Shown in pieces: positions 5,689 through 16,105 of a DNA stretch of 64,000 bases. The stretch lies in NCBI GenBank assembly GCA_947624415.1, contig CANQKH010000004.1, forward strand, positions 1 to 64,000. The letters run 5' to 3'. The DNA comes from an uncultured Clostridia bacterium (lineage in GTDB: Bacteria; Bacillota; Clostridia; Christensenellales; UBA1242). The notes under the pieces were generated by a model. It saw only the letters and a program-made list of their open reading frames with translations. It was not told the origin of the DNA and did no database searches. Position numbers and translations under genes: made by a program. How positions within the stretch are numbered: the stretch's first letter is position 1; each line of letters begins with the position of its first letter.

Positions 5689-5714
5689 AGAATGTGGAAA
5701 GGCACATTCTTTTT
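5687..5714 (+). terminator. terminator after spoVAE
   Basis: AAGAATGTG-GAAAGG-CACATTCTTTTTT. Confidence 0.8.
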
Positions 5715-5754
5715 TATAGTAAAACTTTATTTTTTAAAAGCATATAAGTATATT

Positions 5755-6417
5755 ATGCAAGTTGCAACCACAAAAACAATTAAAAAGCACAAGCCTTTAA
5801 AACATAAATTTAGAATTGTTTTATTCTTTTTGCTTGTAATATTGATTTTAGCATTTATATATTACATAAAAATAGTATGTCCAGTAGTGGCAAGGTTGAG
5901 CGAAGAAAAAGTTAGAGCGGTTGCGACAAATTCAATAAGTGAAGTTGTTGGAGATGTTTTATCAAAAGGAAATATAACTTACAGTGATTTAGTTGAAATA
6001 AAGTATTCTAGCAATAATAAAGTAGAATTAATAGAAATTGATTCTGTAAAAACAAATCTTCTCATTAGAGAAATAACTAAAGGAGTTCAGTCCAAATTTG
6101 ATAATTTGGGTGATGAAAAGATTGGAGTAGCGCTAGGAACATTTTCTGGCATTCCTTTTTTATATGGTGTTGGGCCCAATATATCTTTACAACTAGTTCC
6201 AGTCGGCACTGTTACGACGAAATTCATATCTAATTTTAAGTCTTCAGGCATAAATCAAACTCTTCATCAACTTTATTTTTCTATAAATGCAAACATTGGA
6301 TTAGTTATGCCAACCAAAACCCAAAACTTTAATACACAACTTGAAATAATCATTTGTGAAAGTGTAATAATTGGGAGTATTCCAAGCGTATATCTACAAG
6401 ATAGAGTGTTTGAATAG
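5755..6417 (+). CDS. yunB: sporulation protein YunB
   Basis: N-terminal TM plus AVATNSISEVV and LGTFSGIPFLYGVGPNISLQLVPVGTV motifs; the ORF-track start at 5692 lies inside a terminator. Confidence 0.85.
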   Translation: MQVATTKTIKKHKPLKHKFRIVLFFLLVILILAFIYYIKIVCPVVARLSEEKVRAVATNSISEVVGDVLSKGNITYSDLVEIKYSSNNKVELIEIDSVKTNLLIREITKGVQSKFDNLGDEKIGVALGTFSGIPFLYGVGPNISLQLVPVGTVTTKFISNFKSSGINQTLHQLYFSINANIGLVMPTKTQNFNTQLEIIICESVIIGSIPSVYLQDRVFE

Positions 6418-10252: not shown

Positions 10253-12643
10253 ATGATTTTAAAGAAGTTTTTTAATAAAGACGCCGATAAAGCCAAAGAA
10301 TTTTCGGATAAGTTTAATTTATCTTCAAGAATTTGCGAACTTATATTATCAAGAGGGGTAAACAACGAAGAAGAGTTTGAAGAATATCTTAATCCTAAAA
10401 GATTGAATGATCCCTTCAAATTAAATGGTATGCGTGAACTTGTTGATAGAGTAAAACTTGCAAAAGAACTTAAAGATAAGGTCTTAATCTTTGGCGATTA
10501 TGATGTTGACGGTGTCAGTGCCACAGCAATAATGCTTAAAACGTTGGCACAATTTGGAATAAAAGCAGAATATTATCTACCTAATCGATATATCGATGGG
10601 TATGGATTAACGAACGCAGTTATAGATAAGGTGAATGATATGTATAGTCCAAATCTTATCATCACAGTTGACTGTGGCATTTCTTGTGCAAATGAAGTAG
10701 AGTATGCTAAAAGTCTAGGAATTGAGGTTATTGTAACTGACCATCATGAGATTCCAGACGTTATACCAAACACAATAGTTGTAAATGCAAAACTAGATAA
10801 TCAGGAGTATCCTTTTAAGGAGTTATGCGGAACTGGCGTGGCTTATAAATTTGCGGAGGCATTGCTTGGAAGGGAGGAAGCAGAACAATATCTTCCTATA
10901 GCAGGAATTGCAACAATTGTAGACATTGTCCCATTAAAAGATGAAAACAGGACAATAGTTGCTAGAGGGTTAAGTCTTTGCGAAAAATATTTGCCTATAG
11001 GGCTTAAAATGATGTTTAAGGAATATGGGATTAACATTAAAAATCCAAGTTCCACAAATATTTCATTTAAGGTTGGACCTAAGCTTAATGCATCAGGAAG
11101 AATGGGAGATGCTGCCGATTCTTTAAAGATTTATATGGAGACAGATCCTGTTATTATCAAAACTTATTTAAGTAAAATTAAAAAACATAATCTAAAGAGG
11201 CAAGAACTTTGCAATAAGATTTACGATGATTGTGAAAAAGCACTTAAGAGAATAGATTTAAAAAATCAAAGAGTGATTACTTTAGCATCTAGTAAATGGG
11301 ACAAGGGTGTTTTGGGTATTGTTTGCTCGCGACTAGTCGAAAAGTATCACAAACCAACATTTTTATTTGTTAAAGAAGGAGATATTCTAAGTGGCTCGGG
11401 TAGAAGTATTGATGATATAAATATTCACGAATTACTTTCATCATTAAAAGACATTCTCGTTACTTTTGGTGGACATTCAATGGCTGCGGGACTTTCGTTA
11501 AAATTGGAAAATTATAATTTATTTTCGCAAAAAATTAATGCATTTGCATCCAGCAAGATCAACGATTCTGTCTTTATGCCAATAGAATATTACGATCAAG
11601 AAATTGACGAAGAGGATTTAAATGAAGACTTTTTAAAGGAACTCTCATTATTAGAGCCGGTTGGTTGTGGAAATCCAAGACCTCGTTTCAAGATTACAAC
11701 ACAAGAATTGGAAATAAAACCATTAAAGAAAACTCCTCAACATGCTTATTTTTATATTGGGAAATTAAAATTAATATATTTTAATTATGTTGAAAATTTA
11801 ATAAAATTTGATTTCTCAAGGCAAAAAACATTTATTTTTGAGTTGGATTCTGATTCAACAAACGGAACAATTGTTCAATTTGATGGTGGTAGTTTTATAG
11901 TAGAAGATGCGTATAAGAAGTTAAATGCGATTGAATTAAATCAATTAAATATAGATGATAACGGTGATGCAAAATTTAATTATTATCCACAAAGTGAACT
12001 GGCAAATTTTGTTGGAGGAACTTCAAATACAGTTTTTGGGACTTGCTTTGTTACTTATTCATGTTTTGAATATGTAAATTTTTGTCAGCAATATGATACA
12101 AAGGGATTGTATTATTTTGGATTTTACGATTCTAATGTTTTGGGTTATAATTCAATATTGCTTTCACCGAGAGGGCTTGATTGGGCAAAAAACTTTTCTA
12201 AAATTGTGTTTTTGTCGCCTGTTTTAAATTTTAATTTCGTTGCGAAATTAAATAAAATTACAAGTGCAGAAATTTATATTCCTATAGAAAAGGTTGCAGA
12301 TGCAAGAAAGTTTAGTGGAATTGACCTATCAAGGGAGGTATTTGGCTGCATTTTTAAAGCACTTTGCAAATATAACGAAAAGAATATAAGAAATATTTTT
12401 GAACTTTATGATAAATGCGAGTTTGAAGATATATCTTTCTTTACATTTTATGCAGCGTTGCTTGTTTTTAGCGAATTAGGATTTATAGAATTTACCGAAA
12501 CAGATATTTTAAGACTTAAAATAAATAAAGACAAGAAAAGTGAATTGTCTCAATCTAAAATTTATAATGAAATTTTAAAATTAAAAGAATCTTTGCATGG
12601 GGAGGTGAATGGTGCAAGAAATGAACCTCAATCTAAAAAATAA
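10253..12643 (+). CDS. recJ: single-stranded-DNA-specific exonuclease RecJ
   Basis: GDYDVDGVSATAI, VTDHHEIP, GGHSMAAG. Confidence 0.95.
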   Translation: MILKKFFNKDADKAKEFSDKFNLSSRICELILSRGVNNEEEFEEYLNPKRLNDPFKLNGMRELVDRVKLAKELKDKVLIFGDYDVDGVSATAIMLKTLAQFGIKAEYYLPNRYIDGYGLTNAVIDKVNDMYSPNLIITVDCGISCANEVEYAKSLGIEVIVTDHHEIPDVIPNTIVVNAKLDNQEYPFKELCGTGVAYKFAEALLGREEAEQYLPIAGIATIVDIVPLKDENRTIVARGLSLCEKYLPIGLKMMFKEYGINIKNPSSTNISFKVGPKLNASGRMGDAADSLKIYMETDPVIIKTYLSKIKKHNLKRQELCNKIYDDCEKALKRIDLKNQRVITLASSKWDKGVLGIVCSRLVEKYHKPTFLFVKEGDILSGSGRSIDDINIHELLSSLKDILVTFGGHSMAAGLSLKLENYNLFSQKINAFASSKINDSVFMPIEYYDQEIDEEDLNEDFLKELSLLEPVGCGNPRPRFKITTQELEIKPLKKTPQHAYFYIGKLKLIYFNYVENLIKFDFSRQKTFIFELDSDSTNGTIVQFDGGSFIVEDAYKKLNAIELNQLNIDDNGDAKFNYYPQSELANFVGGTSNTVFGTCFVTYSCFEYVNFCQQYDTKGLYYFGFYDSNVLGYNSILLSPRGLDWAKNFSKIVFLSPVLNFNFVAKLNKITSAEIYIPIEKVADARKFSGIDLSREVFGCIFKALCKYNEKNIRNIFELYDKCEFEDISFFTFYAALLVFSELGFIEFTETDILRLKINKDKKSELSQSKIYNEILKLKESLHGEVNGARNEPQSKK

Positions 12644-14711
12644 AGTATATGAATGTTTTTCATTTGATGAAAACGAAAAAAAAATTATTGAAGAAGCATT
12701 AAATTGCGATTTAAATTGGGCGAGAGTTTTCAAAATAGTTAGCTTAATTGTCGACATGAAGTTAGATAAAAATTCTTGTATAGCATTTTTAGTGTATCAA
12801 TTTTATAAAGTTAAAAGTGTTGAAGGGGACGAGTTGGCAAAAAGATTGTCATTAGAGCAGCAAGAGATGTATAATGATTTTAAAACGATAAAGGATATTA
12901 ACAGGTTAACGAAAAGTGAAGAAATTGAAGATATAAAAAGAATGTTTATAGTTATGAGCAGAGATTTGCGTATTGTCATTATTAAGATGTTTGGAATCTA
13001 TTATGACATCGCAAGCCTTGAAAATCCTTTAACAGAAGAGCAAAAGCTTTTTGTTAAGCAAGTAAAAGATATCCATGTTCCTTTGTCTGAACGTTTGGGA
13101 CTTGACAAGTTAAAGCAAAACTTATACGATAATGTTATTCGTTTAGAGCATCCAAATGAATATGCAAGATTGAAAAAAACAATAGAAAGCGAGCAAGAGG
13201 AGAATAGTAAACAGCTTGAATTGACAAAGACTAAAATCCAGAAAATTTTAGATGAAATGCATATTAATGGAGAAATTTTAAGCAGAATTAAGCATATTTC
13301 ATCAATTTTTAATAAATTACACAATAAAAACCTAACCTTGAATCAAATTTATGATATTTTAGCTATGAGGGTGATTGTAAATAATATTGAAGAATGTTAT
13401 GCTGTTTTGGGGCGTATACATGGTATATATAAACCTATGATAGGTCGCGTGAAAGACTATATTGCGAACCCAAAGCCCAATGGCTATCAGTCTTTGCACA
13501 CAACTATAATAGTGGAAAATCAGCATCCGCTTGAAGTGCAAATAAGAACGGTGGAAATGAATCGCGAGGCAGAGTATGGTGTTTATTCCCACTGGTTGTA
13601 TAAAGAAAAAAAATCAAAACAAGATGCATTTGATCAAAAAATGACATGGTTTAGGCAAACGATTGACAATGCCAAGAATATGTCAAACGAAGATTTTATT
13701 GAAACTTTAAAAAGTGATTTATACGAAGGATTGTTGCTTGTCCAAACACCAATGGGTAAAGTGCTTGAATTTCCTGCAGGGTCAACTATAATTGATTTTG
13801 CTTATGCAATACACTCTGATGTTGGAAATAGGTGTGTAGGTGCAAAAATAAATGGACAATTAAAACCATTTACAACCACATTACATAATGGGGATATTGT
13901 TGAAATAATCACAAATCCTCATTCAAAAGGACCTTCTAGAGATTGGTTAAAGTTTGTTAAAACTGCAAGTGCTAGAAGCAAAATAAAGGCATTTTTTAAA
14001 AATGAGTTGAAAGATGAAAACATAAAATTAGGCAAGTCAATGTTTAATCAAGCAATGATGGATAGAGGATATAACTCAAATCAACTTCTTTCATCTAAAA
14101 TTTTAGAACAAATTTTTAAAAAATATAATTTAGAATCTCTTGAAGAACTCTATGCTTCAATAGGGTCAGGGTCGTTATCTGCTGGCCAAGTTTTATCTCG
14201 CTTTATCATGATATATAATAACGAAAATAAACAATTACCAAAACTTGATAACGTTGTTCATTTAAAAAGAAACAAAGAGGGCGTGCTAATTGATGGCGAT
14301 AGTGGAATGATGGTTCGTTTTGCTCGTTGCTGTTCTCCAATAGAAGGCGATGATATTATAGGATATATAAGTAGAGGTAGAGGAGTTACAATTCATAGAA
14401 CAAATTGTCCTAATTTGGATTATCTCGAAAAAGAAAGGTTGATTGACGCACAGTGGCAAATTAAGGAAGATGCATCATTTACTGCGAACATTAAGGTTAT
14501 TGCAATAAAGTCGGATAATAATATTGGTAGACTTACAAATTTAATAACAGGTTTGAAAATAAATATAAAAGGGTTTGATGCCAAAGATATTGGCGAAAAT
14601 TTCCTATGCACGCTTGTAGTTGAAGTTAAGAATAAATCAGAACTCGAAAGTGCAATAAATTCAATACGAAATATGAAAAATGTTACTAATGTTTATAGGA
14701 GTGAGAGATGA
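12609..14711 (+). CDS. rel: RelA/SpoT-family (p)ppGpp synthetase; N-terminal HD hydrolase domain appears degenerate
   Basis: Synthetase GRVKDYIANPKPNGYQSLHTT...LEVQIRT; TGS, CC-rich and ACT domains present; no HD motif. Confidence 0.93.
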   Translation: MVQEMNLNLKNKVYECFSFDENEKKIIEEALNCDLNWARVFKIVSLIVDMKLDKNSCIAFLVYQFYKVKSVEGDELAKRLSLEQQEMYNDFKTIKDINRLTKSEEIEDIKRMFIVMSRDLRIVIIKMFGIYYDIASLENPLTEEQKLFVKQVKDIHVPLSERLGLDKLKQNLYDNVIRLEHPNEYARLKKTIESEQEENSKQLELTKTKIQKILDEMHINGEILSRIKHISSIFNKLHNKNLTLNQIYDILAMRVIVNNIEECYAVLGRIHGIYKPMIGRVKDYIANPKPNGYQSLHTTIIVENQHPLEVQIRTVEMNREAEYGVYSHWLYKEKKSKQDAFDQKMTWFRQTIDNAKNMSNEDFIETLKSDLYEGLLLVQTPMGKVLEFPAGSTIIDFAYAIHSDVGNRCVGAKINGQLKPFTTTLHNGDIVEIITNPHSKGPSRDWLKFVKTASARSKIKAFFKNELKDENIKLGKSMFNQAMMDRGYNSNQLLSSKILEQIFKKYNLESLEELYASIGSGSLSAGQVLSRFIMIYNNENKQLPKLDNVVHLKRNKEGVLIDGDSGMMVRFARCCSPIEGDDIIGYISRGRGVTIHRTNCPNLDYLEKERLIDAQWQIKEDASFTANIKVIAIKSDNNIGRLTNLITGLKINIKGFDAKDIGENFLCTLVVEVKNKSELESAINSIRNMKNVTNVYRSER

Positions 14712-16105
14712 CAATTCAGTCCAACGTAGATGATTACATTATCGAAATGCAAGACCTTATTAAATTATTTGCTATTGATAATCAGGATTTAATAATTCAT
14801 GAAGAAGTATCAAATGGAGAGTTGTATGTTGAGAACTTTAAAATTATAAACCCTTTAAAAAGTAAGGAATTTAGTTATGAATTTATAACAGAAAAGGAGT
14901 TAAGTGATTTAAGAAAAAAGTCTATAAGAAAACGAAGGGTAAAAAATTACCTTTATGAAATCATTTCAAATGAATATAGTATAAAATTACCGTGGGGCTC
15001 TTTAACTGGTGTTCGTCCAACCAAATTTGCAAGAGATTTAGTTGCATATGGCGAGGCAAAGGAGCATACTATACCAGAAATTATGGCAAGGGATTATTTT
15101 GTTGACGTTGAAAAAGCCAGGCTTGTCGGTAAAATAATTAAAAACCAAAGGGGCATAATTCGAAATGATAACCTTGTTGATATTTATGTGAATATTCCAA
15201 TATGTCCAACAAGATGTAGATACTGTTCGTTTATATCAAATGAATTGGCAAGGGTAAAAGATAAGGTTGATGTTTATTTGGATTGCTTAATAAAAGAAAT
15301 TAATTGTATTAAAGATATTATAAAGAGAAAATCGTATATTGTCCGAAATGTTTATATTGGAGGAGGAACGCCTTCTGTTCTTTCTGCAGAACAATTAGAT
15401 AGACTTTTAGAAGCACTGCGTTTTCCAGTTAATGAATTTACAGTTGAGTGTGGGCGTCCAGACACCATAACTGAGGAGAAATTGGATGTTTTAAAAAATC
15501 ATGGAGTAACTAGAATTTCAATAAATCCACAAACTTTTTGTGAGGCAACATTAAAAAGAATAGGAAGGAAACAAAAAAATCTTCAAGTTTTAAATGCTTA
15601 TTCAATGGCACTAGAAAAAGATTTTATTGTAAATATGGATGTTATAGCTGGATTACCTGGCGAAAAATTGGGGATTTTTAAAAGAACCATTAAAACACTG
15701 CTTGAATTATATCCTCATAACATTACAGTCCACACTTTGTCAATAAAAAATGGTGCATTATTAAAAAACGACAAAATAGAAGACAAAGATGTTGTCAAGA
15801 TGATCGATTTTGCAGAAAATGAACTTGCAAAAAACGGGTATCATCCATATTATATTTATAGACAGAAAAATCAACTTAAAGGTTTGGAAAATGTAGGGTA
15901 TTATCGCGATGAATTCCTTTGTATGTTTAATGTGGAAAGCATGGAAGAAACAAACAGCATTTTGGGTGTCGGAGCGGGTGCAATAAGTAAAAGAATTTTC
16001 AACTTAGAAAACCGAATAGAGAGGCAGGCTAATGTGAAATTTATTGAGGATTATATTCAAAGAATTGATGAAATGATTGAAAAGAAAAAAGAATTTTATA
16101 TTTAA
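14708..16105 (+). CDS. hemZ: HemZ-like coproporphyrinogen dehydrogenase, radical SAM
   Basis: CPTRCRYCSF cluster motif, IGGGTPS, PWGSLTGVRPTKF N-terminal domain. Confidence 0.88.
   Translation: MTIQSNVDDYIIEMQDLIKLFAIDNQDLIIHEEVSNGELYVENFKIINPLKSKEFSYEFITEKELSDLRKKSIRKRRVKNYLYEIISNEYSIKLPWGSLTGVRPTKFARDLVAYGEAKEHTIPEIMARDYFVDVEKARLVGKIIKNQRGIIRNDNLVDIYVNIPICPTRCRYCSFISNELARVKDKVDVYLDCLIKEINCIKDIIKRKSYIVRNVYIGGGTPSVLSAEQLDRLLEALRFPVNEFTVECGRPDTITEEKLDVLKNHGVTRISINPQTFCEATLKRIGRKQKNLQVLNAYSMALEKDFIVNMDVIAGLPGEKLGIFKRTIKTLLELYPHNITVHTLSIKNGALLKNDKIEDKDVVKMIDFAENELAKNGYHPYYIYRQKNQLKGLENVGYYRDEFLCMFNVESMEETNSILGVGAGAISKRIFNLENRIERQANVKFIEDYIQRIDEMIEKKKEFYI

Follow-up and report, generated by a model that had tools for sequence, protein, structure and literature searches.

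The window analysed here is a stretch of 64,000 nucleotides (positions 1 to 64,000 of the forward strand of contig CANQKH010000004.1, assembly GCA_947624415.1) from an uncultured Clostridia bacterium of the order Christensenellales. It carries a gene for a long RelA/SpoT homologue (RSH), the Rel studied below, which lies between recJ and a gene for a Radical-SAM protein (Table 1). The encoded protein scores 522 bits against TIGR00691 (spoT_relA) and shows the domain order of long RSHs, HD_4-RelA_SpoT-TGS-RIS-ACT, with Pfam matches to HD_4 (weak), RelA_SpoT, TGS, RelA_AH_RIS and ACT_4; among solved structures, B. subtilis Rel (6yxa) scores best. Judged from its residues, the hydrolase (HD) domain of this enzyme is dead, making it a synthetase-only Rel, and this state is a trait of a whole clade.

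Table 1. Features of the rel locus in the window, and hydrolase-type RSHs of related genomes
Feature	Coordinates	Strand	Remarks
Long RSH (Rel), degenerate hydrolase and intact synthetase	12609..14711	+	700 aa
Pseudo-hydrolase (HD_4-like) domain	12729..13103	+	residues 41-165; HD_4 49 bits, alignment, predicted fold
(p)ppGpp synthetase domain	13272..13613	+	residues 222-335; RelA_SpoT 136 bits
TGS domain	13734..13919	+	residues 376-437, conserved H402; Pfam TGS 75.6 bits
Helical and zinc-finger (RIS) region	13941..14438	+	residues 445-610; C574 C575 H596 C600; RelA_AH_RIS
ACT domain	14466..14699	+	residues 620-697; ACT_4
recJ (DHH/DHHA1/RecJ_OB), upstream neighbour	10253..12643	+	
Radical-SAM protein, HemZ-like, downstream neighbour	14708..16105	+	Radical_SAM Pfam match
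HD-intact, synthetase-dead full-length RSHs of genus g70			L149, L151, L153, L155, L167, L202
HD-pseudosynthetase-TGS proteins of ~480 aa			L114, L118, L122, L125, L132, L135, L140, L142, L146, L147, L204-L206

A bifunctional Rel (Rel[HS]) requires the HD ligands H, HD and D together with the ED motif, and the window Rel has none of them. In an alignment that includes 29 intact Rels of the order's other families, the columns of H53, H77 and D78 are occupied by R39 (just upstream of the domain match), Y63 and Q64, those of E81 and D82 by K67 and V68, and those of D144, R145 and N148 by G129, I130 and D133, in a numbering that we take to be that of S. equisimilis Rel. All 29 outgroup proteins retain the HP, HDxxED and D-R-x-H-N motifs. 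The HD_4 match of the window Rel amounts to 49-53 bits, as against 162-195 bits for the intact Rels, and it begins at profile position 22, so that the stretch before the first His ligand is missing. The original prediction, made from the letters of the window, had proposed a dead hydrolase on the grounds that the upstream His motif was absent and that FLVYQFYKV and MFGIYYDIASL stood where catalytic motifs were expected; the alignment bears this out, and the two strings fall exactly on the HD-ED and D-R-x-H-N ligand positions.

What the prediction did not contain is that the loss is clade-wide and not a peculiarity of the window gene. None of the 54 full-length Rels of the window genus (g1) keeps the HD ligands, a recurrence far beyond chance or sequencing error, and a sequencing or frame error in the window is thereby ruled out as the cause. 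Moreover, the replacement residues are nearly fixed among these 54 proteins (R39 and Q64 in 98%, K67 and D133 in 100%), which indicates that the site was swapped for a different conserved set of residues and is not merely drifting.

The rest of the protein is intact. Both the synthetase catalytic residues (R226, K228, S232, K236, D249, K289, N291, Y293, H297 and E309) and an RxKD signature, here RVKD, are present, as in a bifunctional Rel[HS]. In 56/56 sequences of the genus, each of the 13 synthetase positions examined is conserved, and all 56 carry RxKD (RMKD or RFKD replaces RVKD in two). The same holds, again without exception, for the His of TGS and the C-C-H-C set of RIS. The claims that the synthetase and the TGS/ACT modules are intact, and that the protein is a Rel with synthetase function only that carries RxKD, thus hold at the level of sequence, with the same picture emerging from the multiple alignment, the tree and the predicted structure. 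As the ribosome- and tRNA-sensing C-terminal half is kept, ppGpp synthesis on starved ribosomes is still to be expected of the enzyme.

The HD remnant evolves differently from the other domains. Its mean pairwise identity is 0.48 within the genus versus 0.59 within the order, whereas the synthetase, TGS, RIS and ACT domains are each more conserved within the genus than within the order, which points to a relaxation of constraint on the HD domain specifically. The remnant is nevertheless still under purifying selection as judged from substitution patterns: the ratio of its nonsynonymous rate (dN) to the synonymous rate of the whole gene (dS) is 0.02-0.07 in the closest usable pairs, distant pairs having been dropped for saturation of dS. 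An AlphaFold model computed from a 36-row alignment (predicted local distance difference test, pLDDT, 81.9 for the whole model; predicted template modelling score 0.58) shows an ordered, helical, HD-like domain, with block pLDDT mostly 88-94 except at residues 90-120, and PDB structures of RelA, SpoT and Rel are among the matches of this model. Work on E. coli has shown that RelA's synthetase activity is under the control of its pseudo-hydrolase domain (PMC8012599), and by analogy the pseudo-HD domain of the window Rel probably holds or regulates its synthetase.

The history of the loss was examined in a tree of 84 long RSHs, built with the HD columns removed and with members of the same order only. 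A single clade (SH-like approximate likelihood ratio test, 98), sister to the Rels of the order's other families, unites the dead-HD Rels of this genus with those of about 18 others. Within the genus, identity to the window protein ranges from 47 to 89%, leaving out two divergent RSHs, L074 and L078; the latter, from G040, was set aside as a divergent RSH with intact HD from a metagenome-assembled genome with 6% contamination. The HD domain has decayed independently in g77 (L184-L186) and in one copy of g75 (L160). In these proteins, and in L188 and L199 of g76, decay is partial, the ED pair or HD being changed and the other ligands kept, and it is possible from these patterns that they represent intermediates of independent hydrolase loss.

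Beyond the family, nearly all genomes with an HD_4 match in a class sample of 391 genomes reach an E value of 1e-38 or better; the exceptions are a handful, made up of family f70 and some genomes that are incomplete. In four f70 genomes of 1.2-1.7 Mb (G320, G374, G505 and G607; completeness 97-100%), the best HD_4 match has an E value of only 1e-18 to 1e-34, and by these scores f70 may be another lineage with a decaying hydrolase domain. Finally, no HD_4 match and no long RSH were found in the family genera g39, g41, g53, g61, g64 and g66 (G101, G103, G115, G123, G126 and G128, 90-99% complete), which, on this pattern of presence, have probably lost RSH-based ppGpp metabolism.

The order recJ-rel-hemZ is found at 54-55 of the 55 loci of the window genus and in most outgroups of the order. 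This conservation indicates that the window gene is the Rel orthologue, not an acquired gene; contamination was also rejected as its source, as the 102-kb contig carries the canonical neighbours. The 5' end of rel overlaps the 3' end of recJ in the window, and an alternative start at M5 (12621) is possible. The downstream gene is presumably HemZ (coproporphyrinogen dehydrogenase), a candidate name that we take from the gene order known in Firmicutes. Elsewhere in the window, a YunB-like sporulation protein (Pfam Spore_YunB) is encoded at 5692-6417, in a genome of 1.45 Mb.

The original prediction held that ppGpp removal would need another enzyme, such as a stand-alone MESH1-like hydrolase. Three candidate types are found among the relatives. 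In genus g70, one RSH has a dead HD domain and live synthetase motifs, and the other is its reciprocal, with an intact HD domain and a synthetase changed at R226W, K228E, D249G and E309K/S. Five of the six hydrolase-type copies were seen next to recJ (recJ is absent from the L202 stretch), and most of their genomes have the separate dead-HD copy elsewhere. Since the hydrolase is the copy beside recJ and the tree groups the dead-HD copy with g55, it is possible that g70 acquired the dead-HD copy from another genus, after which the resident gene lost its synthetase.

A second type, in g1, g42, g48, g57, g63 and g71, is a protein of ~480 aa with an intact HD domain, a middle region devoid of synthetase motifs, a TGS domain and no ACT domain. 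It can be aligned over its full length with long RSHs, the dead synthetase and TGS included (hhalign E value 8.6e-58), SpoT is the best match of its protein model, and its HD domain forms one clade among those of long RSHs, apart from the small hydrolases. Together these results argue for a truncated, hydrolase-only RSH, of which we found no published description. The third type comprises small HD_4 proteins of ~180-320 aa, in several subtypes, present in about a third of the genomes of the genus. In 22 of them, which consist of a single HD_4 domain, H23, H38, H62, D63, E66, D67, D123 and N127 are invariant, and with all ligands kept these proteins are putative MESH1-like hydrolases. In two cases (L148:2693-5489 and L164:1554-4371), the open reading frame of a small hydrolase abuts a same-strand gene for a long RSH with intact HD and overlaps it slightly.

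The predicted need for another hydrolase is thereby supported in part. In the window genome, which is 90% complete, the search for a second long RSH or a small hydrolase found neither: RelA_SpoT and HD_4 give one match each, both to the window Rel, and there is no match to the small hydrolase of the nearest relative (G047) or to the profile of the clade's small hydrolases. Within the genus, an RSH-type hydrolase is present in 24 of 55 genomes, and among the genomes at least 95% complete it is present in 15/35 and was not detected in 20/35; presence changed at least 10 times on the tree. No full-length SpoT-like partner was found in genus genomes that are 99-100% complete.

Taken together, we consider it very probable from sequence comparison that the window gene encodes a monofunctional synthetase derived from an ordinary bifunctional Clostridia Rel. 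All metal-binding and catalytic residues of the HD domain would have been lost once, in the ancestor of the window genus and its related genera, and the remnant would persist as a folded pseudo-domain. Removal of ppGpp would have been handed over in part of the family only, to the truncated RSH, the small hydrolases or the synthetase-dead RSH of g70.

A rearranged HD site that still hydrolyses ppGpp, with ligands such as R39, Y63, Q64 and D133, would leave the enzyme bifunctional. The conservation of the replacement residues, the kept fold and the many genomes with no other RSH-type hydrolase speak for it; we nevertheless regard it as very improbable, as the four metal ligands and the ED pair were lost together, mostly to Arg, Tyr, Gln, Lys and Gly, which are unfit for the known Mn site, the loop before the first His is deleted, and the replaced positions vary between genera of the dead clade. 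A decaying pseudogene or an assembly artefact can practically be dismissed: although the genomes are reduced and RSH matches are missing from several genera of the family, the 54 orthologues have full open frames devoid of stops, the synthetase and C-terminal domains are strongly conserved, and dN/dS is low. It is also conceivable, though rather improbable, that every species has a hydrolase hidden in unassembled parts. For the window genome this has some substance: a whole block of G047 (HAD, small alarmone hydrolase (SAH) and LysR genes) is unmatched there, and at 90% completeness the absence of the hydrolase is therefore unproven. It is contradicted by the 99-100% complete genomes G016, G020, G023, G030, G041, G044, G050, G052 and G053, in which HD_4 searches with E values up to 1 found no hydrolase (G041 shows only a chance-level match of 34 positions) and in which, for those within the 36-genome set, the profile of the clade's small hydrolases finds none either.

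Another possibility, compatible with a monofunctional synthetase and competing only on the route of ppGpp removal, is that the enzyme is so quiet or weak that the cell can do without a dedicated hydrolase, ppGpp being cleared by dilution, NUDIX or Ppx-type enzymes, or slow side activities. We find this somewhat unlikely. The genomes at least 95% complete with no detected RSH-type hydrolase favor it, as do the 11 NUDIX matches of the window genome and the presence of Ppx-GppA there and in nearly all relatives. However, the target of GppA is the 5' end of pppGpp and the family is not known to take off the pyrophosphate at the 3' end, and Ppx-GppA, near-universal as it is, was therefore rejected as the replacement hydrolase. 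There is a precedent in E. coli, which survives without SpoT given hypomorphic relA alleles or overproduced NUDIX proteins MutT or NudG (PMC7593582), but G005 and G026, both also with no RSH-type hydrolase detected, have no NUDIX match, and the catalytic and ribosome-sensing residues are fully conserved. A reading that we find slightly less doubtful, though still less likely than not, is that some species (for example, G026, G005, G016 and G053) have a live, ribosome-triggered synthetase and no RSH-type hydrolase, two of them having no NUDIX either, and hence a novel ppGpp remover or a reset that does without enzymatic 3'-hydrolysis.

Several points weigh against a monofunctional synthetase whose hydrolase function was lost once, in an ancestor. 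Enzyme activities are deduced from sequence alone, and from the same source we infer the regulation by the pseudo-domain and the order of loss. The partner hydrolase was not found in the 90% complete window genome, the dN/dS values come from very few close pairs, in which substitutions are scarce, and the tree is of a 'quick' type that carries no bootstrap. Lastly, the dead-HD copies of g55 and g70 sit away from recJ, so that some transfer of dead-HD Rel between genera may have occurred.

How does this Rel compare with known systems? Hydrolase-dead long RSHs are known from beta- and gammaproteobacteria, and degraded HD domains from some plant RSHs (PMC3153485, PMC10117726), while in a 2023 review of Firmicutes the single long RSH, Rel, is a bifunctional enzyme and the main degrader of ppGpp (PMC10117726). 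We found no report of hydrolase-dead Rels in Clostridia in the open literature, which is weak evidence given that subscription journals lay outside the scope. The clade falls in a large family of small-genome Clostridia, in which a single loss of the hydrolase would account for a wide clade and at least two more decays are seen in other parts of the family. Intermediate and reciprocal states stand side by side, a natural series in which one can study why the two activities of RSHs part, what role a pseudo-hydrolase domain has, and whether cells tolerate a synthetase when they have no dedicated hydrolase.

Like Rel[HS] of Firmicutes (B. subtilis Rel, RelSeq), the window protein has the locus, the domain order, the synthetase signature and close solved structures, but unlike them it has no hydrolase ligand and no ED motif. 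The small hydrolases of its relatives resemble MESH1 and RelH in keeping all ligands, and differ in being sporadic, in falling into several distinct subtypes and in having no counterpart found in the window genome. The g70 pair recalls the complete reciprocal split of SpoT[Hs] and RelA[hS] in Moraxellaceae (Acinetobacter SpoT, PDB 7qpr; PMC3153485, PMC9974481). It is, however, a separate Clostridia event in which the hydrolase is the recJ-linked copy, and the hydrolase RSH of g1 and the other genera, unlike its Moraxellaceae counterpart, ends after TGS (~480 aa). The closest parallel is E. coli RelA (RelA[hS] of beta- and gammaproteobacteria), in which the HD ligands are lost and the pseudo-domain is kept, along with the synthetase and TGS/RIS/ACT (PMC3153485, PMC8012599). 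Unlike proteobacterial RelA, the window Rel has RVKD instead of an ExDD-type signature, scores 425 bits against an equivalog cut-off of 728 (PRK10872), and lies in the recJ-rel-hemZ locus of Clostridia, in a group where no SpoT partner was found in most genomes. By locus, signature and family score it belongs with the Rels of Clostridia and not with proteobacterial RelA. Judged from sequence, its RelA-like specialisation is shared by a whole clade of small-genome Clostridia and has apparently converged on that of proteobacteria.

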